DNA from: Sphingomonas sp.
GTDB taxonomy: Bacteria > Pseudomonadota > Alphaproteobacteria > Sphingomonadales > Sphingomonadaceae
Direction: 5' to 3'
Length of the DNA stretch: 37,100 nucleotides
Assembly: GCF_013812825.1 (NCBI RefSeq)
Contig: NZ_JACCSU010000033.1
Location: 1 to 37,100 of the forward strand
Below, one piece after another: positions 4,181-23,303 of this stretch. Position 1 is the stretch's first letter, and each line of letters begins with the position of its first letter. Under the pieces are notes generated by a model. The model ran no database searches, was not told the DNA's origin, and saw only the letters and a list, made by a program, of their open reading frames with translations. Position numbers and translations under genes: made by a program.

Positions 4181-4207
4181 ATTCGGTTTGGTGCGACCGC
4201 TGGTTAC
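4181..4207 (-). promoter_or_regulatory. SigF-type ECF promoter 1 (DUF3179 operon)
   Basis: Read on the minus strand: GTAAC (4207-4203), 17 bases, then CGAATT (4185-4180). This matches ten other sites in the window. The start codon of the DUF3179 gene is about 9 bases past the -10. Confidence 0.8.
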
Positions 4208-4328
4208 AGGCGATATTCTAATACCCAATTCGGTCCTTGCAGCGCGCTGGCTGCTCGCGACCAGCGGCCCCATTCGAACTCAACTTCGGAACCGCCTTGG
4301 GAATTTATGCTGACTGGATCAGACATGT

Positions 4329-4355
4329 GTAACCGCAAGTCGGACCCGCCCGAAT
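4329..4355 (+). promoter_or_regulatory. SigF-type ECF promoter 2 (peroxiredoxin-like gene)
   Basis: GTAAC at 4329-4333, a 17-base spacer, then CGAATT at 4351-4356. It is divergent from promoter 1, with 121 bases between the -35 elements, and gives an expected 5' leader of about 90 bases before the ATG at 4452. Confidence 0.8.
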
Positions 4356-4451
4356 TTGGAGGTGTCGCCTCAGCCCCCCTCGAGGCGATCGGCTGCGCTG
4401 CTTTGCGTTCCAAGCAGCGCAGCCGTCCCCGATCGAAAGCAGGAGCTCTTG

Positions 4452-4973
4452 ATGAGCGTTCCCATCAAGTTCGGCGCGGGCGCAATGTTTCCAATCTTTT
4501 CCTGGCCCAAAGTAGGGGGCGGTGCCGTCACCCCGGGCGCTGGCGTCGACTGGCGGATGCTGGTCATCTACCGCGGCGCGCATTGCGCGCTCTGCGTCCG
4601 GTATCTCCATAGGGTAAGCGGCCTCCAAAAGCAGTTCACGAGCGCCGGGGTGCGGGTTTGGGCGCTTTCTGCCGATCCGCTCGACAGGGCGGCCGAGCAG
4701 GCGACGCGCGAAGGCTGGTGTATCCCAGTTCTTGCCGAGCTCCAGCAGGACCAGATGCGCGAGCTCGGCCTGTACATCTCGGCGCCGCGTTCCCCCGGGG
4801 AGACTGACCGCAACTTCGCCGAGCCCGCCATTTTCGTTATCAATCCAGAGAGCAAGGTTCAGATCGTCGATGTCTCCAACGCACCGTTTGCAAGACCCGA
4901 GCCGCAAGGACTGCTCGAGGCCCTCAGCTTCGTGATTGACACCCGATATCCGATCCGGGGTACCGCAGGATAA
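4452..4973 (+). CDS. Peroxiredoxin-like AhpC/TSA protein with CxxC
   Basis: A 173-residue cytoplasmic protein of the thioredoxin-fold AhpC/TSA superfamily. The active site is YRGAHCALCVRYL (C45, C48), a CxxC variant rather than the usual single peroxidatic cysteine with a PxxxTxxC motif. Later segments (WALSADPLDRA, ELQQDQMRELGLY, IFVINPESKVQ) follow the family order. The start at 4452 is chosen for its AGGAGC ribosome site. Upstream in-frame ATG 4356 overlaps the -10 of promoter 2 and is excluded. The gene lies ahead of an AraC regulator and is probably co-transcribed with it. A role in peroxide or thiol stress is likely; the substrate is unknown. Confidence 0.8.
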   Translation: MSVPIKFGAGAMFPIFSWPKVGGGAVTPGAGVDWRMLVIYRGAHCALCVRYLHRVSGLQKQFTSAGVRVWALSADPLDRAAEQATREGWCIPVLAELQQDQMRELGLYISAPRSPGETDRNFAEPAIFVINPESKVQIVDVSNAPFARPEPQGLLEALSFVIDTRYPIRGTAG

Positions 4974-5075
4974 CGGATGCGCGGTGCACGAGCGTCCGAA
5001 TGTGGTGCCGTATCGTCCGATGCCCGGAACCGCGAGCCATCGCGCCGGTTGGGGTTCCTAGGAGGCGCATTAAAG

Positions 5076-6107
5076 GTGCTTTCCCAAACTCTGGACAGAC
5101 ATTTGACCGCGCTGGACGTCGAAGTCCATGCATTCGTGGTTTGCGAAGTCGATGACCAGCGTCGACTCAAGCTTCCGCCGATGGAGCTGCCGCTCGTCCA
5201 TTATGTGCTGGTGGGCTCCGGTTTGCTGTGCACTGATGAAGGTGTCTGCGTCCCCATTTCGCCGCACAGCATCGTCTTTCTACCGCCTGCAACAGGCCAC
5301 TATCTTGCAGTGAACGAAGCGGCGTCCGACGTCGTGGACGCCGGCGACGCCTGCTCGCCGCTCGGTGACGGACTCCTAAAATTCTCGTCGGGCGAGTTCG
5401 AGATCGGCGGCAGCAGGCTTGTTACCGCTTGCGGGACGCTGACAGCGAAACTCAGCAATGGCCAAGGGCTGTTCGAACGGCTGCAAGAGCCGCTCGTCGA
5501 GGATTGCCATGGCAGCTCGCCAGTGCGCCAGGCATTCGAACAGATGCTCCGGGAGCTCTCCGAGCCTAGCTTCGGGACTCGCGCGCTTGCAGAAGCGCTC
5601 GTCAAGCAATGCCTCGTCCTGGTGCTGCGCGCGAAGCTGTCGCGCGGGGAAATCGGCCTGCTCCCGCTGCTCAGCTTTCAGGACCAGCGCCTTACACCGG
5701 CATTGATGGCGATGCTCGACGAGCCGGCGCGCGACCATAGCATTGAGAGCCTCGCCGCGCTCGCACGCATGGGCCGTTCACTCTTTGCAGAGAGATTCGC
5801 GCAGGTATTCGGCCAGCCGCCGATCGAGTTCCTGAAGCAGCTTCGGATGCACCACGGCGCGCGTCTGTTGCGCACCACCGACATGTCGGTTTCGCTCATC
5901 GCGACAGCTGTCGGCTATGCCAGCCGAAGCTATTTTTCACGCGCGTTCCGTGAGGCTTATGGCACAGACCCGAGCCAATATCGCGAGCAGGCGCGAAAGA
6001 ACGCGGCCCAACCGCACACAATCGCGAGCCGAAACCTCGTTCAAAAGCTCGTCGAAAGCGTCACCGGGCCCGATGAGTGTAACCGCGACGAGACTTTGAG
6101 CGAATGA
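5076..6107 (+). CDS. AraC-family transcriptional regulator
   Basis: A 343-residue regulator. The N-terminal half is a cupin-like sensor (DQRRLKLPPMELPLVHYVLV through SIVFLPPATGHY) typical of AraC proteins with the cupin_6 arrangement. The C-terminal 100 residues hold two helix-turn-helix motifs (ESLAALARMGRSLFAERFAQ, then SLIATAVGYASRSYFSRAF and the closing YGTDPSQYR). I chose GTG at 5076 because GGAGG sits 10 bases upstream; the next upstream ATG at 4977 has no ribosome site. It follows the peroxiredoxin-like gene. Its last codons contain promoter 3. The ligand and target are unknown. Confidence 0.85.
   Translation: MLSQTLDRHLTALDVEVHAFVVCEVDDQRRLKLPPMELPLVHYVLVGSGLLCTDEGVCVPISPHSIVFLPPATGHYLAVNEAASDVVDAGDACSPLGDGLLKFSSGEFEIGGSRLVTACGTLTAKLSNGQGLFERLQEPLVEDCHGSSPVRQAFEQMLRELSEPSFGTRALAEALVKQCLVLVLRAKLSRGEIGLLPLLSFQDQRLTPALMAMLDEPARDHSIESLAALARMGRSLFAERFAQVFGQPPIEFLKQLRMHHGARLLRTTDMSVSLIATAVGYASRSYFSRAFREAYGTDPSQYREQARKNAAQPHTIASRNLVQKLVESVTGPDECNRDETLSE
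6079..6105 (+). promoter_or_regulatory. SigF-type ECF promoter 3 (membrane protein)
   Basis: GTAAC at 6079-6083, a 17-base spacer, CGAATG at 6101-6106. The site lies inside the 3' end of the AraC gene, whose TGA stop overlaps the -10. The ATG at 6142 with AGGAG follows about 36 bases later. Confidence 0.78.
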
Positions 6108-6141
6108 CACCGGGGGGATCGACCAAGAACAGGAGATGGCG

Positions 6142-6633
6142 ATGACTAAGAGACTGGACTGGAAAGCCGCGTTCCTGGCCGCAATCATCGCCGGCATTGC
6201 GTTCATGATGCTGGAGATGGCTCTTGTGAAGATGCTGCAGGGCCAGAGCCCCTGGGGTCCGCCGCGGATGATGGCGGCGATGGTCATGGGTAAGGAAGTT
6301 CTTCCTCCACCAGGGACCTTTGACGCGACTATCATGACGGTGGCGATGATCATCCACATGATGCTTTCGGTGATGCTCGGGGTCATCCTGGGTCTCTTGA
6401 TTTCCAGGCTGACGTTGCACGTTCTGGCGTCGGTCGTGCTCGGGGCAGTTTTCGGCGTGATCGTCTATTACGTGAACTTCTACGGCTTCACGGCGCTGTT
6501 CCCCTGGTTCGAAATGGCGCGCGGTGCGATCAGCATCTTCGCGCATGCAGTGTTCGGCGCGATCCTTGGCGGCGTTTATTCGGCAATTGCGCTGCACGAT
6601 GCGGCGAAAATCGAAAGGGATGTGGCTGTCTAG
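6142..6633 (+). CDS. Four-helix integral membrane protein, unknown
   Basis: A 163-residue inner-membrane protein with about four transmembrane segments (residues 9-30, 55-78, 87-110 and 130-152) and a Met-rich first half (FMMLEMALVKML, RMMAAMVMG, MTVAMIIHMMLSVMLG). I do not recognise a characterised family, although similar proteins are common in sphingomonads. ATG 6142 is preferred over 6136 because AGGAG (6131-6135) abuts the latter. It has its own SigF-type promoter, so it belongs to the metal-stress regulon. The methionines could bind soft metals, but this is only a suggestion. Confidence 0.8.
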   Translation: MTKRLDWKAAFLAAIIAGIAFMMLEMALVKMLQGQSPWGPPRMMAAMVMGKEVLPPPGTFDATIMTVAMIIHMMLSVMLGVILGLLISRLTLHVLASVVLGAVFGVIVYYVNFYGFTALFPWFEMARGAISIFAHAVFGAILGGVYSAIALHDAAKIERDVAV

Positions 6634-6683
6634 CAACGCTGGTGCACTGCCGGCGGCACGCGCTCGGTTACGAGGAGAGTTTC

Positions 6684-6870
6684 GTGGCTCATTTCCTGCT
6701 CGCCACGGGGCATCGAGTGCAGCGACCGATTCCTCAACGAGTTGCGCTTCAGGAACGAGCTCCTGGGAAGTGTCGTGGCTGCGGGAGCGACGGTCGCTGG
6801 CGTGCTGCTGTTGGGCTCCAAGAACGCTCGAAAGGCTCCAGCGCGGCGCCGGCAGCGAGAGAAGGGCTGA
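6684..6870 (+). pseudogene. Possible frameshifted small membrane protein
   Basis: A GAGGAG site precedes GTG 6684, which opens MAHFLLA. The open frame then turns arginine- and proline-rich and looks non-coding. A second frame over the same stretch, ending at TGA 6868-6870, reads like a small membrane protein tail (FLNELRFRNELLGSVVAAGA, then a Val/Leu-rich helix and a basic tail) but has no start of its own. A single frameshift near 6700-6715 would join the two. Otherwise 6634-6946 contains nothing I can support. Confidence 0.25.
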
Positions 6871-6946
6871 CTGCCATGCACCGCAGCTTCGTCCAGGACG
6901 TCGTCAGCGGTGGACGCGAACGCCGATCCAGCTCAGTCAGGCGGCT

Positions 6947-6973
6947 GTAACCTCTGCGCTCTTTCGGCCGAAT
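6947..6973 (+). promoter_or_regulatory. SigF-type ECF promoter 4 (Cys-Cys peptide operon)
   Basis: GTAAC at 6947-6951, a 17-base spacer, CGAATT at 6969-6974. The predicted start near 6980 is followed by GGAGG at 6991 and ATG at 7000, then by the Cys-Cys peptide gene. Confidence 0.8.
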
Positions 6974-6999
6974 TAGGTAAAGCTGCACTTGGAGGCGAG

Positions 7000-7107
7000 A
7001 TGCAGCAGGGCGGCAGTGAACCGTCTCACTCATGGAGAAGCCGCTCTTCCATGGGCGTTTCTGGCGTAGGTGACATCGTCAGAGCTTCAAACGGAGATTA
7101 CAAATGA
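7000..7107 (+). CDS. 35-residue leader-like small ORF
   Basis: A 35-codon ORF starting MQQGGSEPSHSWRSRSSMG and ending GDYK. GGAGG lies four bases before the ATG and promoter 4 lies just upstream. Its TGA overlaps the ATG of the Cys-Cys peptide gene (ATGA), the classic geometry of translational coupling. The product is Ser/Gly-rich, without cysteines or a signal peptide. It may be a real peptide or simply a translated leader that controls the next gene. No family is recognised. Confidence 0.45.
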   Translation: MQQGGSEPSHSWRSRSSMGVSGVGDIVRASNGDYK

Positions 7108-7250
7108 AGAAAATCATTATCGGAGCGGCCTTGCTGGTGACGTCAGGCTCTACCGCATTCGCGGCCGTTCCCGGCGGCGTTGGCGGCTTGGCAGCAGCTT
7201 GCTGCGCGGCCCTCGCGTGTTGCGGCATCGGCTTGTCCTGCTGCAGCTAA
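7104..7250 (+). CDS. Secreted peptide with three Cys-Cys pairs
   Basis: A 48-residue peptide, too short for usual gene calls. It has an n-region MKKIII, a hydrophobic core and a signal cleavage site near STAFA-A (residue 20/21). The predicted 28-residue mature part is Gly/Ala-rich and carries CC at 33-34, 39-40 and 46-47 (AACCAALACCGIGLSCCS). GGAG lies 7 bases before the ATG, and a terminator-like hairpin follows the stop. It sits under a SigF-type promoter shared with bufferin genes. This suggests an exported soft-metal-binding peptide or a modified RiPP-like metallophore; there is no homology-based proof. I know no named family for it. Confidence 0.75.
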   Translation: MKKIIIGAALLVTSGSTAFAAVPGGVGGLAAACCAALACCGIGLSCCS

Positions 7251-7267
7251 CATCGCCATATAAAAGG

Positions 7268-7299
7268 AAGGGTACTCGCGAAAGGGGGCACCCTTTTCT
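7268..7299 (+). terminator. Rho-independent terminator after the Cys-Cys peptide
   Basis: AAAGGG, loop GGCA, CCCTTT followed by a T-rich run (7281-7299). An alternative longer pairing joins AAGGGT (7268-7273) with ACCCTT (7290-7295). It separates the plus-strand peptide gene from the convergent reductase gene ending at 7312. Confidence 0.65.
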
Positions 7300-7311
7300 C
7301 TGCACCGCGCG

Positions 7312-8664
7312 TCAGGCGAGCATGTAACCAATGTCCGACGCCCCCGTTGGATAGGCGAACATGGTGTCCTTGAGCTGGTCGGCGGTGAGCCCCTGCCGGA
7401 CCGCCAGGGCGAACAGGTTGATCACTTCTTCGGCAGCCGGTCCGACGAGATGTGCCCCTAAAATGCGGCCGGAAACACGCTCCACCAGGACCTTGTGCCC
7501 GTAGATGGTCTCACCGAGCCGCCGAGCCGTGAACCAATCGGGCGTGAACTCGGAACGCAGCTCAAAATCAAGGCCCTGATCTCTCGCTTCGCTCTCTTTG
7601 AGTCCGACCGCTGCGAGCGCCGGAATCGTGAAGACGACGCTCGGCACCCCAAGATAATTCGGTCGTCGGTTGCCGCCGTCAAGCATGTTTGCTGCGGCGA
7701 TCTTCGCGTCGTGACTAGATACGGGCGTAAGCGGCGGCCCCATCCCTGCCGCGTCGCCAGCGGCGAAGATGCGTGAATTCGACGTGCTTCGGAGGTTAGG
7801 CTGCAAGCTTAGCCGCCCGTTTTTGGCGGCGATACCGCCGGCTGCCAAGTCGAGCCGATCGAGTTGCGGAACGCGGCCGGCGGCGTGAATGACAAGGTCC
7901 GTTTCATGCTCAACCCGCCGATTGTCCAATTGCCTCATCGTGACTTTAAAGCCCGGCCTCGATCGCTGGACCGAGACAACCTCGGTTGACAGATGAACCT
8001 GGATACCAAGCTCCTCGAAACGCGGCATCAGCCAACCCACGACCTCACCGTCAAAATGGTCGAGCAAAGCCGGGCCGTGCTGGACGACCGTGACGCGCGC
8101 ACCGGCGCGCGCGGCCAAATGTGAGAATTCTGCAGCGATATACCCGCCGCCGATGAACAAGATACGCGAAGGCAGCCCCGCCAGTTCGAGGAAATCATCG
8201 CTGGTAGCCAACAGCTGCTCACCTGGAATCCCGAGCGGTACCGGATGTGCTCCGGTCGCAATCAGAGCGTGCTTGAACGCGAGCTGGTCCTTGCCAGCCT
8301 GAACTCGGTCGCGAGCTGTGAATCGAGCTGTCCCATCGATCGCATCGATGCTGAGCCTTGCCAGAGTCTGGGCCCGTTTTTCGGAAATCGGCTCCGTAAA
8401 GTCCCGCTTGAATGCCAAGAGCTCTGGCCAATTGATCGACAGCTCGCCATCGACTCCACGGCCGGCCATACGCCTGGCAGCCTCAATTGCCTCCTCCGCG
8501 CTGACCATCATCTTCTTCGGGTCGCAGCCACGCAGCGCACATGTGCCTCCGAACGGCTGGTCGTCGATCATTGCGACCTTCCAGCCCGCGGCGGCGGTGC
8601 GCGTTGCGGCGACCATTGCCGCCGTTCCCGAGCCGATCACGACAAGGTCGTAACAGTCACCCAT
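7312..8664 (-). CDS. Flavin disulfide reductase, mercuric-reductase-like
   Basis: A 450-residue class I pyridine nucleotide-disulfide oxidoreductase. The FAD-binding motif GSGTAA is at residues 11-16, the redox pair is GGTCALRGCDPKK (C42, C47), the NAD(P) site is GGGYIAAEF, the second FAD motif is AAGDAAG, and a dimerisation domain follows. It has no N-terminal HMA domain and no C-terminal vicinal cysteines, both of which full MerA proteins use to deliver Hg(II). At the place of the catalytic HPT-x-x-E of glutathione reductases it reads FAYPTGASD, so His is replaced by Tyr. ATG 8664 has AAGGGA upstream. It is the last gene of the mer-like operon. Hg(II) reduction is possible but not shown. 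Confidence 0.85.
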   Translation of the reverse strand: MGDCYDLVVIGSGTAAMVAATRTAAAGWKVAMIDDQPFGGTCALRGCDPKKMMVSAEEAIEAARRMAGRGVDGELSINWPELLAFKRDFTEPISEKRAQTLARLSIDAIDGTARFTARDRVQAGKDQLAFKHALIATGAHPVPLGIPGEQLLATSDDFLELAGLPSRILFIGGGYIAAEFSHLAARAGARVTVVQHGPALLDHFDGEVVGWLMPRFEELGIQVHLSTEVVSVQRSRPGFKVTMRQLDNRRVEHETDLVIHAAGRVPQLDRLDLAAGGIAAKNGRLSLQPNLRSTSNSRIFAAGDAAGMGPPLTPVSSHDAKIAAANMLDGGNRRPNYLGVPSVVFTIPALAAVGLKESEARDQGLDFELRSEFTPDWFTARRLGETIYGHKVLVERVSGRILGAHLVGPAAEEVINLFALAVRQGLTADQLKDTMFAYPTGASDIGYMLA

Positions 8665-8911
8665 GGCATCCCTTCTGCCCGTTTGGATCGCGGTGGTGTT
8701 CGTCGCCGCTGGAGGCCTGAATGGGCGGACAGGCAACGGAGCCATAAGAGCAGAACACGCAGCAATGGCCCGACAGGGGTCGAAGCAATCGATCGCACGA
8801 CGGGCATTCGTAGAAGAAGAGGCAGGCGTTCGTGGGCATCACCTCCTCGTTCTGGCCGCCGCAATTTGGGCAGGTAATTGTCGAAATGAGGGTGGGCTCC
8901 ACATCAGCCAT
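8657..8911 (-). CDS. GDCCVFCSYG-type Cys-rich protein
   Basis: An 84-residue cysteine-rich protein. Two CxxC knuckles (ITCPNCGG and YECPSCDR) look like a zinc ribbon. They are followed by GHCCVFCSYGSVACPPIQ, the hallmark of the GDCCVFCSYG-motif family found in mercury resistance loci, here with His replacing Asp. It overlaps the transporter gene upstream and the reductase gene downstream by 8 bases each, so all three are tightly coupled. A soft-metal shuttle between MerT and the reductase, replacing MerP or the HMA domain, is a reasonable inference. Confidence 0.85.
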   Translation of the reverse strand: MADVEPTLISTITCPNCGGQNEEVMPTNACLFFYECPSCDRLLRPLSGHCCVFCSYGSVACPPIQASSGDEHHRDPNGQKGCHG

Positions 8912-9275
8912 AGATGTACCCCAGCCCCAGCAACGTCGATCCAGCTCCAATTGCAACGAAGGACAGGGTGCGGGAGAAGCGGCGCCCGCAAGCGGGGGCA
9001 TCGCAGGTGCGAATTGCACGTTCCTGCCGCCAAACAAGGACCGCAGCCACAGCAAGGCTGAAGGTAGCCACGAGCAGCAAGATCGGTCGGATTGGAGACG
9101 CGACTGCGGCGAATGTCCCGAGCCAAGCGGTGCCAATGCCTGCGCTCGCCAGGAGGAGTGGCAATGCGCAACAACTTGCCACTCCGAAAGCTGCCGCTAA
9201 GCCGGTCGCCGAAAACGCGAGGGGACCCTTGGCGGACGACGTTCTTAAAGGAATCTCGATTCTGGAATTGGACAT
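8904..9275 (-). CDS. merT: MerT-like mercuric ion transporter
   Basis: A 123-residue membrane protein with three predicted transmembrane helices. Helix 1 carries the vicinal pair GVASCCALPLLL (C35, C36). A loop between helices 2 and 3 carries a second pair (RTCDAPACGRR, C92 and C97). This is the MerT layout, in which mercury passes from the periplasm to cytosolic thiols. GGAGG lies 7 bases before the ATG. It is the first gene of the operon and is transcribed from the MerR-type promoter at 9308-9338. No MerP follows. Confidence 0.87.
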   Translation of the reverse strand: MSNSRIEIPLRTSSAKGPLAFSATGLAAAFGVASCCALPLLLASAGIGTAWLGTFAAVASPIRPILLLVATFSLAVAAVLVWRQERAIRTCDAPACGRRFSRTLSFVAIGAGSTLLGLGYIYG

Positions 9276-9307
9276 TCCTGGGCCTCCGATAGGTCAACGG
9301 TTAGTTC

Positions 9308-9338
9308 GTTCTACGGTCTGTAGCGGCTACAGGCTCAA
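9308..9338 (-). promoter_or_regulatory. MerR-type promoter/operator with 19-base spacer
   Basis: On the minus strand, -35 TTGAGC (9338-9333) and -10 TAGAAC (9313-9308) are 19 bases apart. The perfect dyad CTGTAG-CCG-CTACAG (9332-9318) lies between them. A long spacer with a central dyad is the signature of MerR-activated promoters, where the regulator untwists the DNA. It drives merT and downstream genes and lies next to the divergent merR. Confidence 0.82.
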
Positions 9339-9375
9339 GCGATTTTTTTTCGGAGACAATCGATGAGGAGCGGCT

Positions 9376-9759
9376 GTGCAGATCGGTGAACTGTCCAGGA
9401 AGACGGGCTGCAATATTGAAACGATTCGGTATTATGAGCGCATCGGGCTGCTGCCGAAACCTGCCAGAAGCGGAAGCTACAGAAGCTACGCACCCGCGGA
9501 CGTGCAGCGCCTTCAGTTCGTGCGGCGAGCACGCGAGCTCGGATTCACGCTCGATGAGATCCGCGCCTTGCTCGCGCTGGCGCTTGCCCCGACCGACTCA
9601 TGCGAGCCTGCACGCGACCTCGCCGCTGCACACTTAAAGCACGTCCGGGGGAAGATCGCCGACCTGCGGCGCATGGAGCGTGTCCTCAGCAACGCGGTTC
9701 GCGCATGCGATAGCGAAATTGACGGTGGCTGTCCGATCATCGCCGCCTTGTCGCAGTAA
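9376..9759 (+). CDS. merR: MerR-family mercury-responsive regulator
   Basis: A 127-residue regulator. The winged helix (QIGELSRKTGCNIETIRYYE, then GLLPKPARS and YRSYAPADV) is followed by a long dimerisation helix. Cysteines C76, C111 and C119 fit the trigonal Hg(II) site of mercury MerR, including the DGGCPII ending. It starts at GTG with GAGGAG five bases upstream and is divergent from merT, consistent with control of the 19-base-spacer promoter between them. Its TAA stop is embedded in promoter 5 of the ECF regulon. Confidence 0.88.
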   Translation: MQIGELSRKTGCNIETIRYYERIGLLPKPARSGSYRSYAPADVQRLQFVRRARELGFTLDEIRALLALALAPTDSCEPARDLAAAHLKHVRGKIADLRRMERVLSNAVRACDSEIDGGCPIIAALSQ

Positions 9760-9782
9760 CCCGGCACACAGCCGACGCGAAT
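9756..9782 (+). promoter_or_regulatory. SigF-type ECF promoter 5 (AhpD-like gene)
   Basis: GTAAC at 9756-9760, a 17-base spacer, CGAATT at 9778-9783. The merR stop codon lies within the -35 element. ATG 9833 with GAGGAG follows about 45 bases past the expected start. Confidence 0.78.
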
Positions 9783-9832
9783 TGATACTCTCTACTGAAG
9801 CCGCAGCCTGCTGCGATTGAGGAGCGCGACGA

Positions 9833-10438: not shown

Positions 10439-10488
10439 CTGACGTGGAGCTGTCTCGAAGATGGGCTGCGCGGCTCAGCTGTTCTGCT

Positions 10489-13284: not shown

Positions 13285-13287
13285 CCT

Positions 13288-14316: not shown

Positions 14317-14317
14317 C

Positions 14318-14974: not shown

Positions 14975-15264
14975 AGCGGACCGCGATCAGGCCCTCTGAG
15001 CGCGCCGTAGCTTCCATAGCTCGACACCGCGAACGGCACTGCATAGGTGAGCGCCAGCTTCCACAGCACAAGCGGCTCGCCGTGGAATATCGCATCGCCC
15101 TGATTGATGACATTGAGACCAGTCCCGACTACAACTGCCACTCCAATCGAACGCTTGAGCATTGGCCGGGCGAAAGTCCGTCTAAGCGCCTCCGATCTGG
15201 ACATTGGCAGCGGATCGACACAGGTCTCGCCAGCCACTCCGGTGAGTTCGCGGCTTGTCTTCAT
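14965..15264 (-). CDS. nrtS: NrtS-like nitrate/nitrite transporter
   Basis: A 99-residue membrane protein with two predicted helices. The segment RSIGVAVVVGTGLNVINQGD followed by YAVPFAVSSYGS is characteristic of the NrtS family, small nitrate/nitrite transporters. The start overlaps the stop of the MTA phosphorylase gene (ATGA), so it is the last gene of that operon. Why it follows bufferin and MTA genes is unclear. The name rests on motif recall. Confidence 0.72.
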   Translation of the reverse strand: MKTSRELTGVAGETCVDPLPMSRSEALRRTFARPMLKRSIGVAVVVGTGLNVINQGDAIFHGEPLVLWKLALTYAVPFAVSSYGSYGALRGPDRGPLQP

Positions 15265-16118
15265 CGCCGCCGGATCATCTCGAGCCTCGCCGCCATTTCT
15301 GGCTCCCGCGCTTCAGGGGACGTGACGATCGCCCTGTCGAGGACGGTGTCGATTGGCGAGGGGGTGCGCTCTTTTGGTAAGAAATGCGGCAGCTTCTCGA
15401 TCATTGCGCGGGCGATCGCCCCATTTGCCCGCAACTGGGCGATCACCGTCGCGACTTCGACGGGCTTCTCGCCGACGCGCCAGCAATCATAGTCGGTCAC
15501 CATTCCGACCAGCGCGTAGGGCAGCTCGGCCTCGCGTGCGAGCTTCGCTTCGGGCATTGCCGTCATGCCGATTACGTCGGCACCCCATTGCCGGTAGAGT
15601 TCGCTTTCCGCGCGGGTGGAGAGGTGAGGCCCGTCTATGGCGATATAGGTTGCTCCGCTCGTAACTTCGGCACCCGCTGCCTTGGCTCCGCTAGCGGCAA
15701 ACGCTGACAACCGTTGGCAGACTGGATCGGCCATGGAGACGTGGGCGACGAGGCCGGGCCCGAAGAAGCTCTTTGCGCGCGCTGTCGTGCGATCGATGAA
15801 CTGGTCGACCAGCACGAAACGGCCGGGCGCAAGTTCGTCCCGGAGCGAGCCTACGGCGGATACGGCGAGAATGTCGGTGCATCCGAGCTGTTTCAGGGCG
15901 GCGATATTGGCGCGCGCGTTGACGTCGGCCGGCGGCAGCCGGTGTCCTCGCCCATGGCGCGGAAGAAAGGCGAAGTTCACGCCGTCAATCCTGCTCAGGA
16001 GAATCTCGTCGGAAGGCGGCCCCCACGGAGTGTCGACTGCGGTCCACCGCGGCTCTTCGATCCCGGGCAGCTCGTAAAGACCCGATCCACCAAGGACGCC
16101 GATCATCCATTCTTTCAT
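15261..16118 (-). CDS. mtnP: S-methyl-5'-thioadenosine phosphorylase
   Basis: A 285-residue purine nucleoside phosphorylase (PNP/UDP family). GVLGGSGLYELPGIEEP at the N-terminus, FLPRHGRGHRLPPADVNARAN for phosphate binding, DGPHLSTRAES, and GMTAMPEAKLAREAELPY then VTDYDCW match MTA phosphorylases. The enzyme cleaves MTA to adenine and methylthioribose-1-phosphate. ATG 16118 was taken; M5 of the same frame is possible. It follows the bufferin/DoxX genes and the phosphate-transporter remnant. Such phosphorylases may also process 5'-deoxyadenosine from radical SAM reactions, which fits the nearby radical SAM gene. That link is inference. Confidence 0.88.
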   Translation of the reverse strand: MKEWMIGVLGGSGLYELPGIEEPRWTAVDTPWGPPSDEILLSRIDGVNFAFLPRHGRGHRLPPADVNARANIAALKQLGCTDILAVSAVGSLRDELAPGRFVLVDQFIDRTTARAKSFFGPGLVAHVSMADPVCQRLSAFAASGAKAAGAEVTSGATYIAIDGPHLSTRAESELYRQWGADVIGMTAMPEAKLAREAELPYALVGMVTDYDCWRVGEKPVEVATVIAQLRANGAIARAMIEKLPHFLPKERTPSPIDTVLDRAIVTSPEAREPEMAARLEMIRRR

Positions 16119-16131
16119 GATAAGATACGCC

Positions 16132-16281
16132 TCACACAAGAGAAACTCCAATCGCCCAGGACATGCCTGCCGCGCAAGGGAGCGTGGCCAGCCACGACAG
16201 CAGCAGTCCGCGAAGAGCCGCCGGGTCGAGCGTGCCGGCGCCGGCGCCCACGCCGACGATCGATCCGAGCGCTGCTAAAGC
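16132..16281 (-). pseudogene. C-terminal remnant of a PiT phosphate transporter
   Basis: A 49-codon stretch without a start reads as the last transmembrane part of an inorganic phosphate transporter (LGSIVGVGAG, then LRGLLLSWLATLPCAAG). The rest of the gene is absent: its 5' edge abuts the stop of the DoxX gene. It lies between doxX and mtnP on the same strand, which suggests that the bufferin operon was inserted into, or recombined with, a phosphate transporter gene that formerly preceded mtnP. Confidence 0.55.
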
Positions 16282-16775
16282 GCCACGGGATCGGGCCGAG
16301 TGGCCTCGCGCTCTCCCGGGACGCCCAGAAGGCAGTCGAGGGACAGGCGGCCGCCGCCACGCGCGATCAAGGGGATCAGCAGCGCCGCCCAGCTTAGGTG
16401 CGTCGGCCATGCGTCCGGGTAGACGAAGATCTGGATGACGAATGTCATGACGAGCAGCGCCGCGGCGGACACCCGTGTGAACAGACCGAGCACCAGCAGA
16501 ATTGGGAAGATATGTTCGGCCGTGGTCGCGAGGTAGGCCGCAGTATCCGATCGCATCAACGGCACCTGATACTCGGATTCAAACATGAAGAATGTGCTGT
16601 CAGTGATCGTGAAAAGCCCCTCGACCTTGGTTCTTCCGGACAGGAAGAATACGGAAGCAATGGCCAACCGCTGCAGCAGCGGCAGCAGCCAGCCGGGTAT
16701 CACGTTGCCGATTCGAACGAGGATACCGAAAACCGACCGCGGAAAGAGATTGGTGGACCGTGAGACTGTTGCCAT
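16275..16775 (-). CDS. DoxX-family membrane protein of the bufferin operon
   Basis: A 166-residue membrane protein with about four helices. [21 protein letters not shown] and the helices around [20 protein letters not shown] and [14 protein letters not shown] are typical of DoxX proteins. ATG 16775 shares a base with the bufC stop (TGATG) and has AAGGA upstream. DoxX proteins commonly accompany DUF692/DUF2063 bufferin genes; the proposed role is in membrane redox or thiosulfate chemistry, unproven here. Its stop abuts the phosphate-transporter remnant. Confidence 0.87.
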
Positions 16776-17527
16776 CAATCGTTCCTTTGCGTTTGAACGG
16801 AGAGCGTCAGCGCGCCGCTCGAGATGATGTTCGTAATCATCGGTGGGAGCTGCGCGGAACCATTGGCTGCCGCGACTGTGCGAATTGCCGCGCCGATCGA
16901 GCGCCCTTGCTGCAGTTCCCAAAGGAGCTGGAATTCTGGCTCAGGCAGCAGCCGGACTGAAACCGAGGCACCCTTTCGGTGCACGAGTGCATGCTCAATC
17001 TGCCATTCGGGTTCGAATTCCTTGAACTCGCCCTGCTGATGCGCAGCCCAGATTGTGACAGCCGGTGATTCGAAGCGCGCCAGCCGCGCCGCGGGGTGCA
17101 GCCTCGGGCGAAGAGTGGCCGCTTGCTTCGGCATAAGCTGGTGAAAGACCGCCGGGTTCAACGGCTCGGATTCGGCGGCGAATAGACATTCGGTCCAGAG
17201 CCGCTCCAGCCTCGCGACATCGGCGATGTAGGGCAGCTCGTCCAACAGCGGGAGCCCAGCCAGGTGGGCTGGGAAGCTGTGGCCATACAGCGCGAGGACC
17301 GGCGATGCCGATCGTTGGGTCCGCACATATTCAATGGCGACCGATTTAAAGACGTCAGCCCCGAGCAGCGCGGCGATCACCGGATAGTTGGCTGCGAGCG
17401 CTTCGAGCAGGCTCTTGACCCACGTGTTTCGGTACACGGCGAATCCCGGGGCTCGAAACGGCCCAGGAGTCCGGCGCCCCATCACGGCCAACGCGAATCG
17501 CCGCTGAAAGACGGCTGGGTCAAGCAT
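16775..17527 (-). CDS. bufC: HvfC/BufC N-terminal domain (DUF2063) protein
   Basis: A 250-residue protein with the DUF2063 N-terminal domain: [31 protein letters not shown] and PVIAALLG, then [12 protein letters not shown]. BufC partners the MNIO enzyme BufB, presenting the bufferin precursor for cysteine modification. It overlaps bufB by 8 bases and shares a TGATG junction with doxX. The C-terminal half (residues 125-250) is the more variable winged or recognition part. Confidence 0.9.
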
Positions 17528-18356
17528 CGGCTAGTTCCGCTCGCGGGCGGAGGATGGCGACAGCGCGGTCCCGCTCGGCCATCAGTTCGTCGAATGGTGG
17601 GACGTTGCCGTCGCGTTCAATCAGTGTTGGGCGCGGGCCCATGCGCCCGATCGCATAGGCGTAAAGCTCCCAGACAGAGTCTCCGATCGGCTGGTCGTGG
17701 CTGTCGATCAACAGGGAAGGGCCGAGCGTCGGGTCACTGCTGTAGCCGGCGAGGTGAATCTCAGTGACCGCCAAGGGGGGAATTAATTCGATATACTTCT
17801 TCGGATCGAAGCCGAGATTTGAAGCGCTGACATGGACATTGTTCACGTCCAGCAGGAGAGTGCAGCCGGAGCGGCGGACCAGTTCCTTGAGGAACTCCGT
17901 TTCGCTCCATTCATGCCCATCGAGGTCGATGTACAGCGACGGATTTTCGATCAGGATCGACCGGCGGAGCGCATCCTGAGTGATTCGGATGTTGCGGACA
18001 ATCAGGTCCAGCATCTTTGTCGTACGCGGAAAGGGCAGCAAGTCGGGAAAAGAGATTTCGCCAAGGCGCGACCAGGCGAGATGCTCCGAGATAAGAAACG
18101 GCTGAAACCTGTTCGCGAGCTCCTTGAGACGCGCGAGATGCTGGGGGTCGGGCCATTCCACGCCGGCAAGTGATAGTCCTACCCCGTGAAGGGAAAGCGG
18201 CTTTTCCGCCCGCAATGCCTCGAGCATGGCGAGGCGCGGACCGCCGTCGACCATGTAGTTTTCAGCATGCACTTCGAACCACAGGCCCTCCGCCGGAGAG
18301 GCGACGGCCTCCTGGAAATGTTCGGGCTTGAAGCCGACTCCGACAGTGGCCTTCAT
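17520..18356 (-). CDS. bufB: MNIO-type maturase (DUF692) for bufferin
   Basis: A 278-residue TIM-barrel DUF692 protein, a multinuclear non-heme iron-dependent oxidative enzyme. Metal-ligand motifs appear in order: VHAENYM, SEHLAW, IENPSLY, LDVNNVHVSA, EIHLAGY, IDSHD and LIERDGNVPPFDEL. MNIOs with a DUF2063 partner convert cysteines of bufferins into thiooxazole-type rings that bind copper. The gene starts three bases after the bufA stop and overlaps bufC, so it is translated as part of the bufferin operon. The assignment is strong. Confidence 0.92.
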   Translation of the reverse strand: MKATVGVGFKPEHFQEAVASPAEGLWFEVHAENYMVDGGPRLAMLEALRAEKPLSLHGVGLSLAGVEWPDPQHLARLKELANRFQPFLISEHLAWSRLGEISFPDLLPFPRTTKMLDLIVRNIRITQDALRRSILIENPSLYIDLDGHEWSETEFLKELVRRSGCTLLLDVNNVHVSASNLGFDPKKYIELIPPLAVTEIHLAGYSSDPTLGPSLLIDSHDQPIGDSVWELYAYAIGRMGPRPTLIERDGNVPPFDELMAERDRAVAILRPRAELADA

Positions 18357-18359
18357 TGT

Positions 18360-18644
18360 TCAGGCAATCGGCTTAAGTGACCCAAATCCCCTGGGCGTCC
18401 TGATTTTGGCGCAGGTGCCCGCCTTGACCATCTTGTAGGCATTGCCTTGATAATCGACCTTGGAGGTGCCGGCGCACGTGGTGCCCGCACCAGCCTTGCA
18501 GTCATTCTTTCCGGCGAGCGCGACGCCGTAGCATTTCTCCATCGCCGCTTTGGAGCTTTTTTGTTGTGCCTGCGCCGTGGCCGGGGCAAATCCGGCCGTA
18601 AGGACCGACAGCGCCAGCGCTGCTGTCATGTGGTTCGATGTCAT
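18360..18644 (-). CDS. bufA: Bufferin precursor peptide (BufA1/DUF2282)
   Basis: A 94-residue exported precursor. Signal peptide through about APATAQA, then the DUF2282 core [18 protein letters not shown] with four cysteines C38, C49, C57 and C78 and the closing TPRGFGSL. In bufferins the central cysteines are oxidised by BufBC and the product binds copper in the periplasm. ATG 18644 is supported by GGAG 8 bases upstream; an in-frame TTG at 18662 is less likely. It heads the bufABC-doxX operon under promoter 8, divergent from the ECF sigma gene. Confidence 0.92.
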
Positions 18645-18688
18645 AGGAGCATCTCCGATCAAAGACCCCCGAGCGAGGTCTCAAGTGA

Positions 18689-18715
18689 TTTCGAACCGGG
18701 TCGCAAAGCGGTTAC
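18689..18715 (-). promoter_or_regulatory. SigF-type ECF promoter 8 (bufA operon)
   Basis: Minus-strand GTAAC (18715-18711), a 17-base spacer, CGAAAT (18693-18688). The expected transcript start is about 38 bases before the bufA ATG. Confidence 0.82.
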
Positions 18716-18762
18716 GTCCGGTGGTGAAAAAGATGCCGTCTCCTATTGCTGGGTGATCAGTT

Positions 18763-18789
18763 GTAACGCATCCGGCAGGTCATCCGAAC
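18763..18789 (+). promoter_or_regulatory. SigF-type ECF promoter 9 (sigma factor gene)
   Basis: GTAAC at 18763-18767, a 17-base spacer, CGAACT at 18785-18790. Its presence in front of the sigma gene implies positive autoregulation. It is the only copy with GTAACG rather than GTAACC. Confidence 0.8.
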
Positions 18790-18805
18790 TTAAGGGAAGA
18801 ACCTA

Positions 18806-19354
18806 GTGGATTCGGTCGAGGTGCAGCTGAAGGTCTTGATGCTGGCGGGGCTTGCGGGAGACGCAAAGGCTCACCACCGGCTGCTGAGTGCCGCCGCTGC
18901 CCGGCTGAGGATCTTTTTCGGCCGCCGGCTCGGTCCGGACGCGCCGGACGTGGAGGATTTGGTGCAGGAAACACTCATTGCAATTCACCAACGACGGGAC
19001 AGCTTTAATCCGGCGCTTCCGTTCACGGCCTGGCTTTACGCGATCGCCCGCTACAAGCTTGTCGACCACTACCGGCGCAGCGGGATTCGCTCCCATGTGT
19101 CGATCGACAACGTCGATGAACCCGCGGCAGCCGATGATATCGGCCCGGTGCTCGCCGCGTCTGACGTCGACAGATTACTTTCCGAGCTGCCCGAGAAACA
19201 TCGTTCCGCCATCCGACTGACCCGGCTCGAGGGTTATTCGGTTGCGGAAGCGTCGGACATCACCGGGCAATCGCCCTCGGGAATCAAGATTGGAGTACAC
19301 CGAGGATTGAAGAAGCTAACGATGCGCGTGCGAGGCGAACATGATCGCGACTGA
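18806..19354 (+). CDS. sigF: ECF sigma factor, SigF-type (NrsF-associated)
   Basis: A 182-residue ECF sigma factor. Region 2 is DAPDVEDLVQETLIAIHQRR with PFTAWLYAIARYKLVDHYRR. Region 4 is LLSELPEKHRSAIRLTRLEG with the helix-turn-helix SVAEASDITGQSPSGIKIGV. GTG 18806 lies 8 bases after AAGGGA, though the predicted start from promoter 9 leaves only a short leader. Its gene overlaps the NrsF gene by 14 bases, the usual pair in alphaproteobacteria, where SigF-NrsF answers heavy metals. Eleven matching promoters in the window define its likely regulon, including its own gene and both bufferins. Confidence 0.9.
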   Translation: MDSVEVQLKVLMLAGLAGDAKAHHRLLSAAAARLRIFFGRRLGPDAPDVEDLVQETLIAIHQRRDSFNPALPFTAWLYAIARYKLVDHYRRSGIRSHVSIDNVDEPAAADDIGPVLAASDVDRLLSELPEKHRSAIRLTRLEGYSVAEASDITGQSPSGIKIGVHRGLKKLTMRVRGEHDRD

Positions 19355-19985
19355 GGATCTCATCCGCAATCTTTCCGCGGATCTCAAGCCGAGCCGCCCA
19401 GGAATGGCATCCCTGCGCCTGCTGTCCTGCGTCGTCGGCGGTGCGGTTGTGGCGCTGGCTGGGATCACGCTCGTACTAGGCAGCCCTCTGGGCGCCGTCG
19501 GATATACGGGCATCCCTGCATTCACGATGAAACTTGCCTTCGCCGCCGCCATGACTGCGGCAAGTGGCATTCTATTGCTCGCTGCGGGGCGGCCGGGCCA
19601 GCAAATTGGCTTCCACCTGACATGGCTACTGCTACCGCTGTTTGTCGTTGCTGCGGCCGCAGTCATGGAGCTAGCGATCACCGCGCCGCAATTGCGCGAA
19701 CAGGCGTGGCTGGGAACAACCTGGCTCACCTGCATCTTGGCCATCGTGGGCTTTTCCCTTCCGGTGCTTGGAGGCGTAGTGTGGGCCTTCCGGCGGCTCG
19801 CTCCGACGCGCCTGCGTCTCACCGGATTCCTGGCGGGCATCACCTCAGGTTCGGCCGCCGCCTTGGTCTATGCTCTTTACTGCCCGGAGACGACTGCGAC
19901 GTTCCTCGCCAGCTGGTATACAGCCGGGATCGTCGCCGCAGGATTGATCGGCCTTCTCGCGGGTCCTCGATTGTTGCGGTGGTAG
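19341..19985 (+). CDS. nrsF: NrsF/DUF1109 membrane anti-sigma factor
   Basis: A 214-residue inner-membrane protein with six predicted helices and a short cytoplasmic N-terminus (MIATEDLIRNLSADLKPSRP) that would bind the sigma factor. It belongs to the DUF1109/NrsF family. Cysteines C131 and C181 sit at the ends of helices facing the periplasm; the family's two conserved cysteines are implicated in sensing metals such as chromate, cadmium or copper. It overlaps the sigma gene by 14 bases and the methyltransferase start by 7. Loss of binding on metal oxidation or coordination would free the sigma factor; inferred from relatives. Confidence 0.9.
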   Translation: MIATEDLIRNLSADLKPSRPGMASLRLLSCVVGGAVVALAGITLVLGSPLGAVGYTGIPAFTMKLAFAAAMTAASGILLLAAGRPGQQIGFHLTWLLLPLFVVAAAAVMELAITAPQLREQAWLGTTWLTCILAIVGFSLPVLGGVVWAFRRLAPTRLRLTGFLAGITSGSAAALVYALYCPETTATFLASWYTAGIVAAGLIGLLAGPRLLRW

Positions 19986-20647
19986 GAAAGCGGCCCATCG
20001 GCAGGTCGGACGAGAGCGACGCTAGTGGAGCCCGGCGCAAGACATATCAACGGATTGCGCGCTTCTACGACATAATTGATCTGCCGTTCGAATATGGCCG
20101 CTACCGTTCATTGAGACCTCTGCTTTTCCAAGGGCTGGGTGGTCGGATCCTCGATGCGGGTGTTGGCACCGGTCGAAACATGCCTTTCTACCCGCCTGGC
20201 TCGGAAGTGGTCGGCGTTGATATGAGCCCGGCCATGCTTCTCCGAGCCGAGCGACGGCGCATGCATTCACCGGCACTCGTCCGTCTCAAAGAGATGGACG
20301 TAACGCGTCTCGACTTCCCGGAGGGCAGCTTCGATGCCGTCGTCGCCTCCTTTCTCTTCTGCACGCTGCCGGAGGAGCTCCAGGCACCGGCGATCGGAGA
20401 GCTGTCCCGCGTCCTGAAAGCGGAGGGAACGTTGCGAATTCTTGAATACCGGCGCCCTCGCGGCGGCGTGCGTCTCATTTTGACAAGGCTTTGGGCGCCG
20501 TGGGCGAAATGGGCTTTCGGAGCGAGTTTCGATCGCTATCCCGAGCGGCATTTTGCGCACTGTGGGCTAGAAATCACCAAAATGACGTTCGTGTTCGAAG
20601 ACCTGATCGTATTGATCGAGGCGAGACGTCGCAAAGCGGTCCTGTAA
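19979..20647 (+). CDS. Class I SAM-dependent methyltransferase
   Basis: A 222-residue methyltransferase. Motif I is GRILDAGVGTGRNMPFYPP, the acidic loop is VVGVDMSPAMLLRAE, motif IV is FPEGSFDAVVASFLFCTLP, and a C-terminal segment with a Trp-rich helix (LTRLWAPWAKWAFGASF) may contact membrane or lipid. The best start is GTG 19979, overlapping the NrsF stop (GTGGTAG); no strong ribosome site is seen, so coupling is likely. It follows sigF and nrsF under promoter 9. The substrate is unknown; UbiE and phospholipid N-methyltransferase relatives are possible. Confidence 0.8.
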   Translation: MVGKRPIGRSDESDASGARRKTYQRIARFYDIIDLPFEYGRYRSLRPLLFQGLGGRILDAGVGTGRNMPFYPPGSEVVGVDMSPAMLLRAERRRMHSPALVRLKEMDVTRLDFPEGSFDAVVASFLFCTLPEELQAPAIGELSRVLKAEGTLRILEYRRPRGGVRLILTRLWAPWAKWAFGASFDRYPERHFAHCGLEITKMTFVFEDLIVLIEARRRKAVL

Positions 20648-20699
20648 ACAACTGCGACATTCATGAACAAGCGCTCGAATCACTTCGACAGCTGCGGGG

Positions 20700-20741
20700 G
20701 CAGCGACGGAGATGCGCGTTTGTCATCATCTCCGTCGCTGC
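20700..20741. terminator. Strong stem-loop between convergent genes
   Basis: A perfect 14-base stem (GCAGCGACGGAGAT paired with ATCTCCGTCGCTGC) encloses a 14-base loop. It lies between the methyltransferase stop (20647) and the end of the lipoprotein bufferin gene (20750). There is no U-tract on either side, so it is a barrier or RNA-protecting stem rather than a proven Rho-independent terminator. Confidence 0.5.
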
Positions 20742-20749
20742 TGTCGGGA

Positions 20750-21073
20750 TTACGCCTGTTTTTCCTGGAGCGACCCAAAGCCCTTGGGGGTCTTGATCTT
20801 TGTGCAGGTGCCTTTGTCCACCGTTTTAAATGCGTTGCCTTGGTAATCGGTCCTCGATGTGCCGGCACAAGTGGTGCCCGCGCCGGCCTTGCAATCGTTC
20901 TGACCGGCAAGCGCTACACCGTAGCACTTTTCCATGTCCGGATCGCCCATCTTGGCTTGCGCGAGCTCCTGCGCCGCTTGATTCTGAGCGCGCTCCTGGG
21001 GCTGCCGGTTCTCCGAACAGGCGCCCAACAGCGAGACCGCCACCGCGGCAGCCGATAGTGTCGTCAAGTTCAT
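20750..21073 (-). CDS. Lipoprotein bufferin (DUF2282), second copy
   Basis: A 107-residue DUF2282 bufferin. Unlike the first bufferin, its signal ends in a lipobox, [10 protein letters not shown] (lipid cysteine C19), followed by a Gln/Ala-rich linker and the core [18 protein letters not shown]. The four core cysteines C50, C61, C69 and C90 have exactly the same spacing as in BufA (11, 8, 21). It has its own SigF-type promoter 10 and no maturase beside it, so modification by BufBC from the operon at 16.8-18.6 kb is likely. The product would be tethered to the membrane rather than free in the periplasm. Confidence 0.88.
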
Positions 21074-21109
21074 GATCTCTCTCCCTTCATGCTTAGCAGA
21101 TGCGTGCTA

Positions 21110-21136
21110 GTTCGAAGGAAGGCCGTAGCTGGTTAC
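21110..21136 (-). promoter_or_regulatory. SigF-type ECF promoter 10 (lipoprotein bufferin)
   Basis: Minus-strand GTAAC (21136-21132), a 17-base spacer, CGAACT (21114-21109). The bufferin ATG at 21073 follows about 30 bases after the expected start, with AAGGGAG upstream of it. Confidence 0.8.
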
Positions 21137-21203
21137 AGCGAATGGTCGGCTGCGTCTCGGCCGGGGTCAGCCCAATCCCAGGAAAGTAATATTTTCGCGG
21201 CAG

Positions 21204-21230
21204 GTAACCGTTCGCCGCGTCTGTTCGAAT
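21204..21230 (+). promoter_or_regulatory. SigF-type ECF promoter 11 (isochorismatase-like gene)
   Basis: GTAAC at 21204-21208, a 17-base spacer, CGAATT at 21226-21231. It is divergent from promoter 10, with 67 bases between the -35 elements. The leader to ATG 21380 is long, about 140 bases. Confidence 0.78.
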
Positions 21231-23302: not shown

Positions 23303-23303
23303 C

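Follow-up and report, generated by a model that had tools for sequence, protein, structure and literature searches.

Contig NZ_JACCSU010000033.1 of a Sphingomonas assembly (GCF_013812825.1) was analyzed over its whole length of 37,100 bases, referred to below as the window. It raises the question of why one short pattern should stand in front of gene after gene over 17 kb. A sequence-only reading of this DNA had proposed that eleven occurrences of GTAAC-N17-CGAA are promoters of a single extracytoplasmic function (ECF) sigma factor and define a local metal-stress regulon. Our analysis strongly suggests that these sites are the promoters of one SigF, a sigma factor of the ECF16 type, which would be held by the anti-sigma factor NrsF until envelope stress, most likely copper or another soft metal, frees it and all of them fire together. 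Promoters and regulons of this type are already known, and what is new here is the size, the compactness and the content of the regulon.

A promoter motif crowded into 17 kb

The motif, which spans 26 bases, was found exactly 11 times in the window, at the places where it had been reported, whereas in 100 dinucleotide shuffles it appeared 0.06 times on average and once at most. Each of the sites was first listed as 27 bases long, so that one of its two end positions is wrong by a single base. Ten of the eleven sites do read GTAACC, the exception being GTAACG at 18763, ahead of the sigma factor gene. In the whole assembly (2,449,372 bases scanned, 96% complete), the looser pattern GTAAC-N17-CGAA occurs 16 times, 11 of them in the window and the other five without GTAACC, and all ten GTAACC-N16-CGAA copies of the assembly fall in the window. 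These are the comparisons of density, with the rest of the genome and with shuffled DNA, that had been suggested as a check. The reversed pattern gave 18 matches genome-wide, so that the total of 16 is ordinary; the crowding into 17 kb is not. Also, the GTAACC form numbered 0 to 14 per genome in 60 related genomes (reversed control, 0 to 19) and 0 to 13 in 71 NrsF-bearing genomes of the class (from 79 other such genomes, eight with weak or partial NrsF matches being left out). With such counts, a few exact sites per genome are expected by chance, but ten within 17 kb are not. No exact GTAACC-Nk-CGAA with a spacer other than 16 was present in the window when spacers of 12 to 20 were tried. When the ten GTAACC sites were compared in pairs, their spacers differed at 11.4 of 16 bases on average and at 8 or more in every pair; the spacers are thus unrelated in sequence, and the sites are not copies of a repeat.

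As had been noticed, one site precedes the ECF sigma gene itself: 18763–18788 (plus strand, GTAACG variant) lies 17 nt before the GTG start of a 182-residue protein of the SigF/ECF16 type (18806–19354, plus) matching PF04542 and PF08281, with regions 2 and 4 only. It is adjoined by a gene for an NrsF anti-sigma factor (19341–19985, plus; PF06532, E = 7e-52, 176.6 bits for a cut-off of 26.8), the only NrsF of this genome, which scores 88 bits, below the cut-off of 300 of the stricter NCBIfam NrsF equivalog. The protein has cysteines at positions 30, 131 and 181. In Caulobacter crescentus, replacing C131 and C181 of NrsF frees SigF (PMC3511200), and Cys131 and Cys181 of the window protein bear the same residue numbers as this tested pair. 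In an alignment of eight NrsF sequences, C131 was invariant (8/8), and C181 was found in the six SigF-type ones and absent from two second-type proteins of congeners. This second, distant type (L280 1144–1794 and L281 931–1617, both without a residue matching C181) lies with its ECF gene beside a radical SAM/TVP38 cassette, with neighbors read by eye as MsrB/MsrA or DUF1223.

The SigF binding sequence is printed as GTAACC-N16-CGAA, with 5′-RACE, for C. crescentus (PMC3511200), and the ECF16 consensus as (T/C)GTAAC-N17-CGAA (PMC8315932); the base before GTAAC is T or C in 8 of the 11 window sites. These printed motifs match, so the likeness to Caulobacter SigF promoters that the sequence-only reading pointed out was correct. 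The sequence thus supports a SigF-NrsF regulon of a known kind, with autoregulation suggested by the layout. The sequence-only reading mentioned neither NrsF nor arsenosugar-type family names.

Each site is directed into a gene, as claimed, with 10 to 131 bases from CGAA to the chosen start codon; two starts are uncertain, those of the radical SAM gene and of the gene behind 21204. The operon limits given here are predicted. The site at 4182–4207 (minus) ends 10 nt before a DUF3179 gene (3146–4171, PF11376), followed on the same strand by genes for a thioredoxin-like protein (2707–3099, PF00085) and a CcdA/DsbD transmembrane protein (1927–2652, PF02683). On the other strand, 4329–4354 (plus) stands 97 nt before the ATG of a peroxiredoxin-like gene (AhpC-TSA, 4452–4973, plus, PF00578), which precedes an AraC-type regulator with a Cupin_6 domain (4977–6107, plus, PF12833 and PF12852). 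The site at 6079–6104 (plus) overlaps the 3′ end of this araC gene and precedes a 165-residue membrane protein of no family (6136–6633, plus); 6947–6972 (plus) precedes a gene for a 48-residue exported peptide with three Cys-Cys pairs (7104–7250, plus), and 9756–9781 (plus) an AhpD/carboxymuconolactone decarboxylase-like gene (9833–10438, plus; PF02627, TIGR01926).

Two back-to-back sites would serve a radical SAM/glycosyltransferase cluster. The minus-strand one (13259–13284) points into a fusion of TVP38 (VTT domain) with an FAD oxidoreductase of the DLDH kind (11091–13232, PF09335 and PF07992), adjoined by the gene of a TIGR04282 glycosyltransferase (10489–11091, minus, 202 bits for a cut-off of 134), and the plus-strand one (13288–13313) into a radical SAM gene (13354–14316, PF04055; Rv1681-like, weakly ArsS-like) and a TIGR04283 glycosyltransferase (14315–14974, plus, 226 bits for a cut-off of 182). 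Their −35 elements are 3 bases apart (GGTTAC-N3-GTAACC, 13274–13293), and two polymerases could hardly occupy both promoters simultaneously. Between the promoter and the conserved part (13314–13560), the radical SAM frame contains none of the codons ATG, GTG and TTG, and an ATC stands shortly after a GGAG; either the start codon is unusual or the sequence is imperfect. A gene for methylthioadenosine phosphorylase (MTAP; 15261–16118, minus, TIGR01694 above cut-off), which neighbors this cluster in relatives, belongs to it without a site of its own.

The site at 18690–18715 (minus) precedes a bufferin operon: Buf1 (DUF2282, 18360–18644, PF10048), the MNIO maturase BufB (17520–18356, NF050167, 353.7 bits for a cut-off of 310), BufC (DUF2063, 16775–17527, PF09836) and DoxX (16275–16781, PF07681), all on the minus strand. 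A DUF2282 precursor, an MNIO maturase and a DUF2063 protein are thus all present, as in Buf1 bufferin clusters; BufC and DoxX score under the cut-offs of the NCBIfam models HvfC and HvfX. A second Buf1 gene (20750–21073, minus, PF10048) follows the site at 21111–21136 (minus), and the site at 21204–21229 (plus) faces an isochorismatase-domain gene (21338–22372, plus, PF00857) with two close start candidates, 21332 and 21338. Behind nrsF lies a class I methyltransferase gene (20003–20647, plus, PF13649 in the enclosing open reading frame).

Recurrence of the sites and of their targets in other genomes

We varied the spacer from 10 to 22 bases around SigF homologues (the best 80 of 480) and around the 40 best-scoring NrsF matches outside the window, in loci of up to 20.5 kb each. 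Around the 80 SigF loci, 106 sites had a spacer of 16 and 0 to 4 any other spacer, and around the 40 NrsF loci 27 had a spacer of 16, against 0 to 8 at the others. At least one exact GTAACC site was present in 60 of the 80 SigF loci and 16 of the 40 NrsF loci. The flanks are conserved too, with T before GTAACC in 82% of 131 distinct sites and T-rich sequence after CGAA. The printed motif, the adjacent NrsF gene and this specificity of the 16-base spacer around SigF genes elsewhere all argue for the proposal of one ECF sigma factor with a local regulon. None of the 120 loci equals the window in number of sites, the highest counts of GTAAC[CG] being seven in L193 and five in L127. In L193, a Rubrivivax assembly of another class, the seven sites lie within 12.3 kb (371–12665), and an ArsS-type gene faces a bufferin operon.

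In the window and the 120 loci together, 174 GTAAC[CG] sites were found, 173 of them with a nearby frame. The first genes behind them were SigF (51), Buf1 (26), MNIO/DoxX-type and overlapping frames (16), thioredoxin-like (5) and radical SAM (3, two ArsS-type and one of the window's type), many of the others being single. These counts are approximate because the automatic choice, the longest frame, was wrong for the window radical SAM and Cys-Cys peptide genes, which were reassigned by hand. When homologues of the targets were examined directly in the 120 loci, a site stood upstream of 53 of 118 sigF genes, 33 of 56 Buf1 genes, 5 of 9 thioredoxin-like genes, 3 of 6 radical SAM genes, 1 of 3 DUF3179 genes (L109) and the only homologue of the 165-residue membrane protein (L119). 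None of 5 AraC homologues had one directly upstream; the AraC gene of L127 does follow a site, which this test missed because the N-terminus was not aligned, and an AraC-like gene of L131 likewise lies behind a site. No homologue of the window MTAP or methyltransferase gene was present in the 120 loci. Genes inside operons are expected to fail such a test, and the counts are small for several of the supported targets.

The membership proposed for the regulon therefore stands in part. Sites before relatives back the bufferins, the thioredoxin-like and DUF3179 proteins, the radical SAM clusters and the Cys-Cys peptide, and also the 165-residue membrane protein and the AraC gene. For the peroxiredoxin-like and isochorismatase-like genes we found no outside support, and for the AhpD-like gene only co-localization, in a single congener (G032), where it stands downstream of a site-bearing bufferin gene. 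Overall, the earlier interpretation was right in kind and incomplete in detail. With this result, a sigma regulon that was small and poorly understood acquires a list of parts that can be tested, and a functional context is provided for DUF3179, the 165-residue membrane protein, the Cys-Cys peptide and the Rv1681-like radical SAM enzyme.

The Cys-Cys peptide shows a signal peptide (by eye) followed by its three pairs; it matched no Pfam family at cut-off and no NCBIfam model. Matches at E ≤ 0.01 were obtained in 11 of 298 genomes of the family, the window genome included, and 14 loci were read on both strands. The peptide was clear in the window and in six loci (L393, L394, L395, L398, L399, L401), and L397 has a variant of it. 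In L394, L395, L398 and L399, five residues separate the pairs, giving one pair per seven residues; in the window and the congener L393, the spacings are four and five residues. Only L399 of the six has a close site, an exact GTAACC-N16-CGAA 59 bases before the start, which makes it the second case after the window. An exact site lies 372 bases upstream in L393, the other four have none, and in L135 a GTAACG site lies about 330 bases before a similar peptide; the distant sites in L393 and L135 were not counted as support. This peptide may have a role in binding metals.

The radical SAM cluster resembles arsenosugar-type clusters in its two glycosyltransferases, whose families are both named 'arsenosugar biosynthesis glycosyltransferase' by NCBI and both score above cut-off, and in its MTAP gene; relatives add an ArsM-like methyltransferase. 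The window differs from such clusters in that its radical SAM protein is far below the cut-off of the ArsS model TIGR04167 (69.7 bits, cut-off 300), and in that no close ArsM-like gene was found in the assembly, the best match to a relative's ArsM-like protein having E = 9e-6. The window methyltransferase reaches 20 of the 263 bits set for the ArsM family, and the relatives' ArsM-like protein, whose best NCBIfam match is arsenite methyltransferase, 158 bits for the same cut-off of 263. Among the open-licence PMC matches listed, no paper ties SigF or NrsF to arsenosugar genes.

At a threshold of E ≤ 1e-40, the radical SAM protein has homologues in 82 of the 298 family genomes. In most neighborhoods examined, its gene is accompanied by an FAD oxidoreductase, TIGR04282-like and TIGR04283-like genes and MTAP, to which an ArsM-like methyltransferase is often added. 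Outside G008, G032 and G1017, the oxidoreductase is 33–41% identical to that of the window, with no TVP38 part in the frames read, and the glycosyltransferases are 27–46% identical; the radical SAM protein is mostly 50–65% identical and MTAP 59–67%, except one at 38%. Apart from radical SAM and MTAP these identities are distant, which therefore indicates a related type of cluster rather than the same cassette.

A search for NrsF in 80 of the 82 genomes gave scores over cut-off in 58. We examined 32 of these 58 and all 22 others, up to a distance of 4.9 kb from the radical SAM gene; one counted as NrsF-lacking (G849) has a sub-cut-off NrsF match with a stop. GTAAC[CG]-N16-CGAA was present in the cluster in 19 of 32 NrsF-bearing and 4 of 22 NrsF-lacking genomes (Fisher p = 0.0027), and, with at least two core genes present, in 19 of 27 versus 3 of 19 (p = 0.0003). 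By genus, the figures were 13 of 18 versus 0 of 5 (p = 0.0075). The first test compared 26 with 22 genomes (p = 0.0026), the last six NrsF-bearing genomes having been added afterwards for a within-genus species contrast, and the relatedness of genomes is only partly controlled in this association. When the spacer was varied, NrsF-bearing genomes gave 26 sites at 16 versus 0 to 6 elsewhere, and NrsF-lacking ones 5 versus 0 to 3. The four NrsF-lacking exceptions belong to genera with NrsF in another examined species, and one of these genomes is only 70% complete. Among 14 listed cluster sites, the oxidoreductase has five in front of it, the ArsM-like gene four and the radical SAM gene one, the remaining four being elsewhere; of 30 short radical SAM loci, only two (window, L300) have a GTAACC site that directly precedes this gene. 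The occurrence of SigF-type sites in the radical SAM/glycosyltransferase clusters of this family, in association with NrsF, is the broader result.

We also asked whether ArsS proper (TIGR04167) is a general target of SigF, which the phylum-sample and class counts do not support. It occurs at E ≤ 1e-60 in 116 of 398 genomes of the phylum sample, and GTAACN-N16-CGAA was found in 1 of 30 loci fetched for the best ArsS matches, genomes in which NrsF was not sought. In the class, 2 of 80 NrsF-bearing genomes scored over the ArsS cut-off, and neither locus had a site. In three betaproteobacterial loci (L161, L193, L197) an ArsS gene does lie behind a site; this sample is biased because the loci were found through their nearness to sigF. 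An apparent 1072-residue TVP38/radical SAM fusion in L161 proved to be a frame artefact, the radical SAM gene being in another frame.

Inducing signal, rival explanations and origin of the arrangement

We hypothesize that NrsF keeps SigF at the inner membrane, and that envelope stress, most likely an excess of copper or another soft metal, would act on its periplasmic cysteines 131 and 181. Once freed, SigF would initiate transcription from all eleven sites together. The output would consist of two bufferins, copper-chelating peptides that would be made, matured and exported, probably of another kind of cysteine peptide, and of periplasmic redox proteins, and the same response would switch on the arsenosugar-type radical SAM/oxidoreductase/glycosyltransferase cluster. 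Promoter activity at these sites, like the functions and locations of the products, is a prediction. A SigF promoter in common predicts that the copper-buffering peptides and the arsenosugar-type pathway answer one signal.

Known systems offer both likenesses and differences. C. crescentus SigF-NrsF has, like the window, the GTAACC-N16-CGAA motif, the sigF-nrsF pair, the two conserved NrsF cysteines, two DUF2282 genes, DUF692/MNIO, DUF2063 and DoxX (PMC3511200). Besides sigF, the Caulobacter regulon comprises three transcriptional units that lie apart from one another and hold eight genes, YedY among them (PMC3511200), whereas the window has eleven promoters in 17 kb and adds DUF3179/thioredoxin/CcdA, AhpD, AraC, the Cys-Cys peptide and the radical SAM/glycosyltransferase cluster. 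Buf1 bufferin clusters share DUF2282, MNIO maturase, DUF2063, DoxX, sigma factor and NrsF with the window (PMC12452194); in that survey, additional conserved genes appear only in extremely low proportions, unlike in the window, where further operons bear the sigma factor's promoter. The ECF16 pairs Brucella BcrS-AbcS and Sinorhizobium RpoE7-EcfR7 likewise combine a sigma/anti-sigma pair with an ECF16 promoter (PMC8315932, PMC6180224). In contrast with the window, their main target is one adjacent operon, encoding a methionine-rich peptide and MsrPQ and responding to HOCl in Brucella (PMC8315932), and of four genes in Sinorhizobium (PMC6180224).

Metal stress as the signal is a plausible inference, to which oxidant stress is a live rival. 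The same SigF-NrsF regulon might respond to oxidant or disulfide stress, caused for example by hypochlorous acid, with bufferins and redox proteins answering thiol damage. We consider this distinctly less likely, yet the induction of the Brucella pair by HOCl (PMC8315932) speaks for it, as do the redox-rich targets of the window (peroxiredoxin-like, AhpD-like, thioredoxin-like, CcdA, FAD oxidoreductase), the genes behind sites in relatives read by eye as MsrA, MsrB or cytochrome b, and the araC product, whose best NCBIfam match is RclR, far below cut-off. Metals are favored by C. crescentus, in which SigF targets are induced by chromate and cadmium and, in the passage cited, not by oxidants (PMC3511200); copper also induces this regulon, and a sigF::Tn5 mutant is copper-sensitive (PMC8224329). 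Buf1 chelates copper through thiooxazoles (PMC12452194), and two bufferins and the Cys-Cys peptide are among the window targets.

Several observations weigh against a single SigF answering metals at all eleven sites. The Brucella result does so if the signal is taken as purely metallic, and reporter tests of the S. meliloti ECF16 sigma factor are described, in the passage cited, as giving no response to H2O2, Cd or chromate (PMC6180224). The site of sigF itself deviates from the consensus. In the 120 loci, no site stood directly upstream of homologues of the TVP38 fusion (0/9), TIGR04282 (0/3), TIGR04283 (0/4) or the AhpD-like gene (0/1), and no homologue of the peroxiredoxin-like or isochorismatase-like gene was found. 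In the cluster survey, four of the 22 NrsF-lacking genomes have a site and 13 of the 32 NrsF-bearing ones have none. Most clusters of the family are, apart from radical SAM and MTAP, loosely related to that of the window, and both NrsF and sites are absent from G1017, whose cassette is the closest (70% identity in radical SAM).

The congeners bear on how the arrangement arose. Of the 41 genomes of the genus, 18 contain NrsF, which scores over cut-off in 17; leaving out a weak match in G009, we read 17 neighborhoods from 16 genomes besides that of the window. sigF lies with bufferin-operon genes in 14 of the 17, with 0 to 3 sites each, and divergent site pairs beside sigF, as at 18690/18763, are present in many relatives. 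Contig C341 of G032, the reverse complement of L118 (a Sphingomonas assembly), and the window have DUF3179, thioredoxin-like, CcdA, bufferin, AhpD-like, BufB, BufC, DoxX, SigF and NrsF in common, at 43–81% identity and in a different order. Another contig of G032, and G008, carry a distant ECF/NrsF pair, 28–32% identical to SigF and with the same motif, which adjoins the TVP38 fusion and, in G008, also the radical SAM, TIGR04283 and MTAP genes. In relatives these genes thus stand at separate loci, or the cluster has a second sigma factor of its own, whereas the window groups them with one SigF in 17 kb. We read the window as two modules that may have come under the control of a single sigma factor. 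The second pair may have been lost here or may never have been acquired; G1017, the closest cassette, lacks both NrsF and site.

The presence of this second pair beside the cassette in G032 and G008, together with the single NrsF of the window genome, lends some weight to the idea of more than one sigma factor, in which the pair at 13259–13313 would be relic promoters of a second ECF16 sigma factor, SigF2, lost here, perhaps inactive or weakly read by SigF. It appears improbable, since the motif is identical down to the 16-base spacer, both sites match the consensus exactly, and for 8 of 9 site-holding NrsF-bearing neighborhoods the stretch fetched encodes no homologue of SigF or SigF2. Finally, chance matches or a dispersed repeat, an idea for which only the loose pattern's genome-wide total, no higher than the reversed control, could be invoked, are ruled out by the shuffle and spacer controls, by a spacer fixed at 16 across many genomes and by the placing of the sites 10 to 131 bases before starts.

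Returning to one SigF at all eleven sites, a wider reading can tentatively be drawn, in which we have a little less than even confidence. SigF/NrsF would be a family-wide general envelope-stress controller that couples copper-buffering RiPPs (ribosomally synthesized and post-translationally modified peptides), an organo-arsenical-type pathway (ArsM-like methyltransferase, radical SAM, FAD oxidoreductase, two glycosyltransferases and MTAP) and a new class of small exported Cys-Cys peptides with pairs about every seven residues. The window would then be two merged modules, the cassette's own ECF16 pair having been lost or never acquired.

Other genes of the window

A mer-like operon (7312–9759), with a MerA-like reductase, a MerT-like protein and a MerR regulator, lies inside the regulon without a SigF-type site; MerA (300.8 bits, cut-off 454) and MerR (127, cut-off 151) are under the NCBIfam cut-offs. 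A cus-like operon (22952–29307) of CusF/TolC-like/CusB/CusA-type efflux genes also lacks a site; the regulon thus does not consist of the metal genes in general. Third-position GC is higher in these efflux genes than in the regulon genes.

A possible plasmid or exchange origin of the locus was checked by megablast of 4000–21400 against 72,556 plasmid records, which gave one 133-base match; SigF homologues were present in 488 plasmid records, all at <60% identity. The contig ends showed no exact overlap at the six lengths tried. Also, we observed an unusual fusion at 30182–32764, an 860-residue frame joining NAD epimerase, SPW repeats and a VKOR domain, and, at 14965–15264, a 99-residue protein that matches the NrtS nitrate/nitrite transporter with 27.5 bits for a cut-off of 25.

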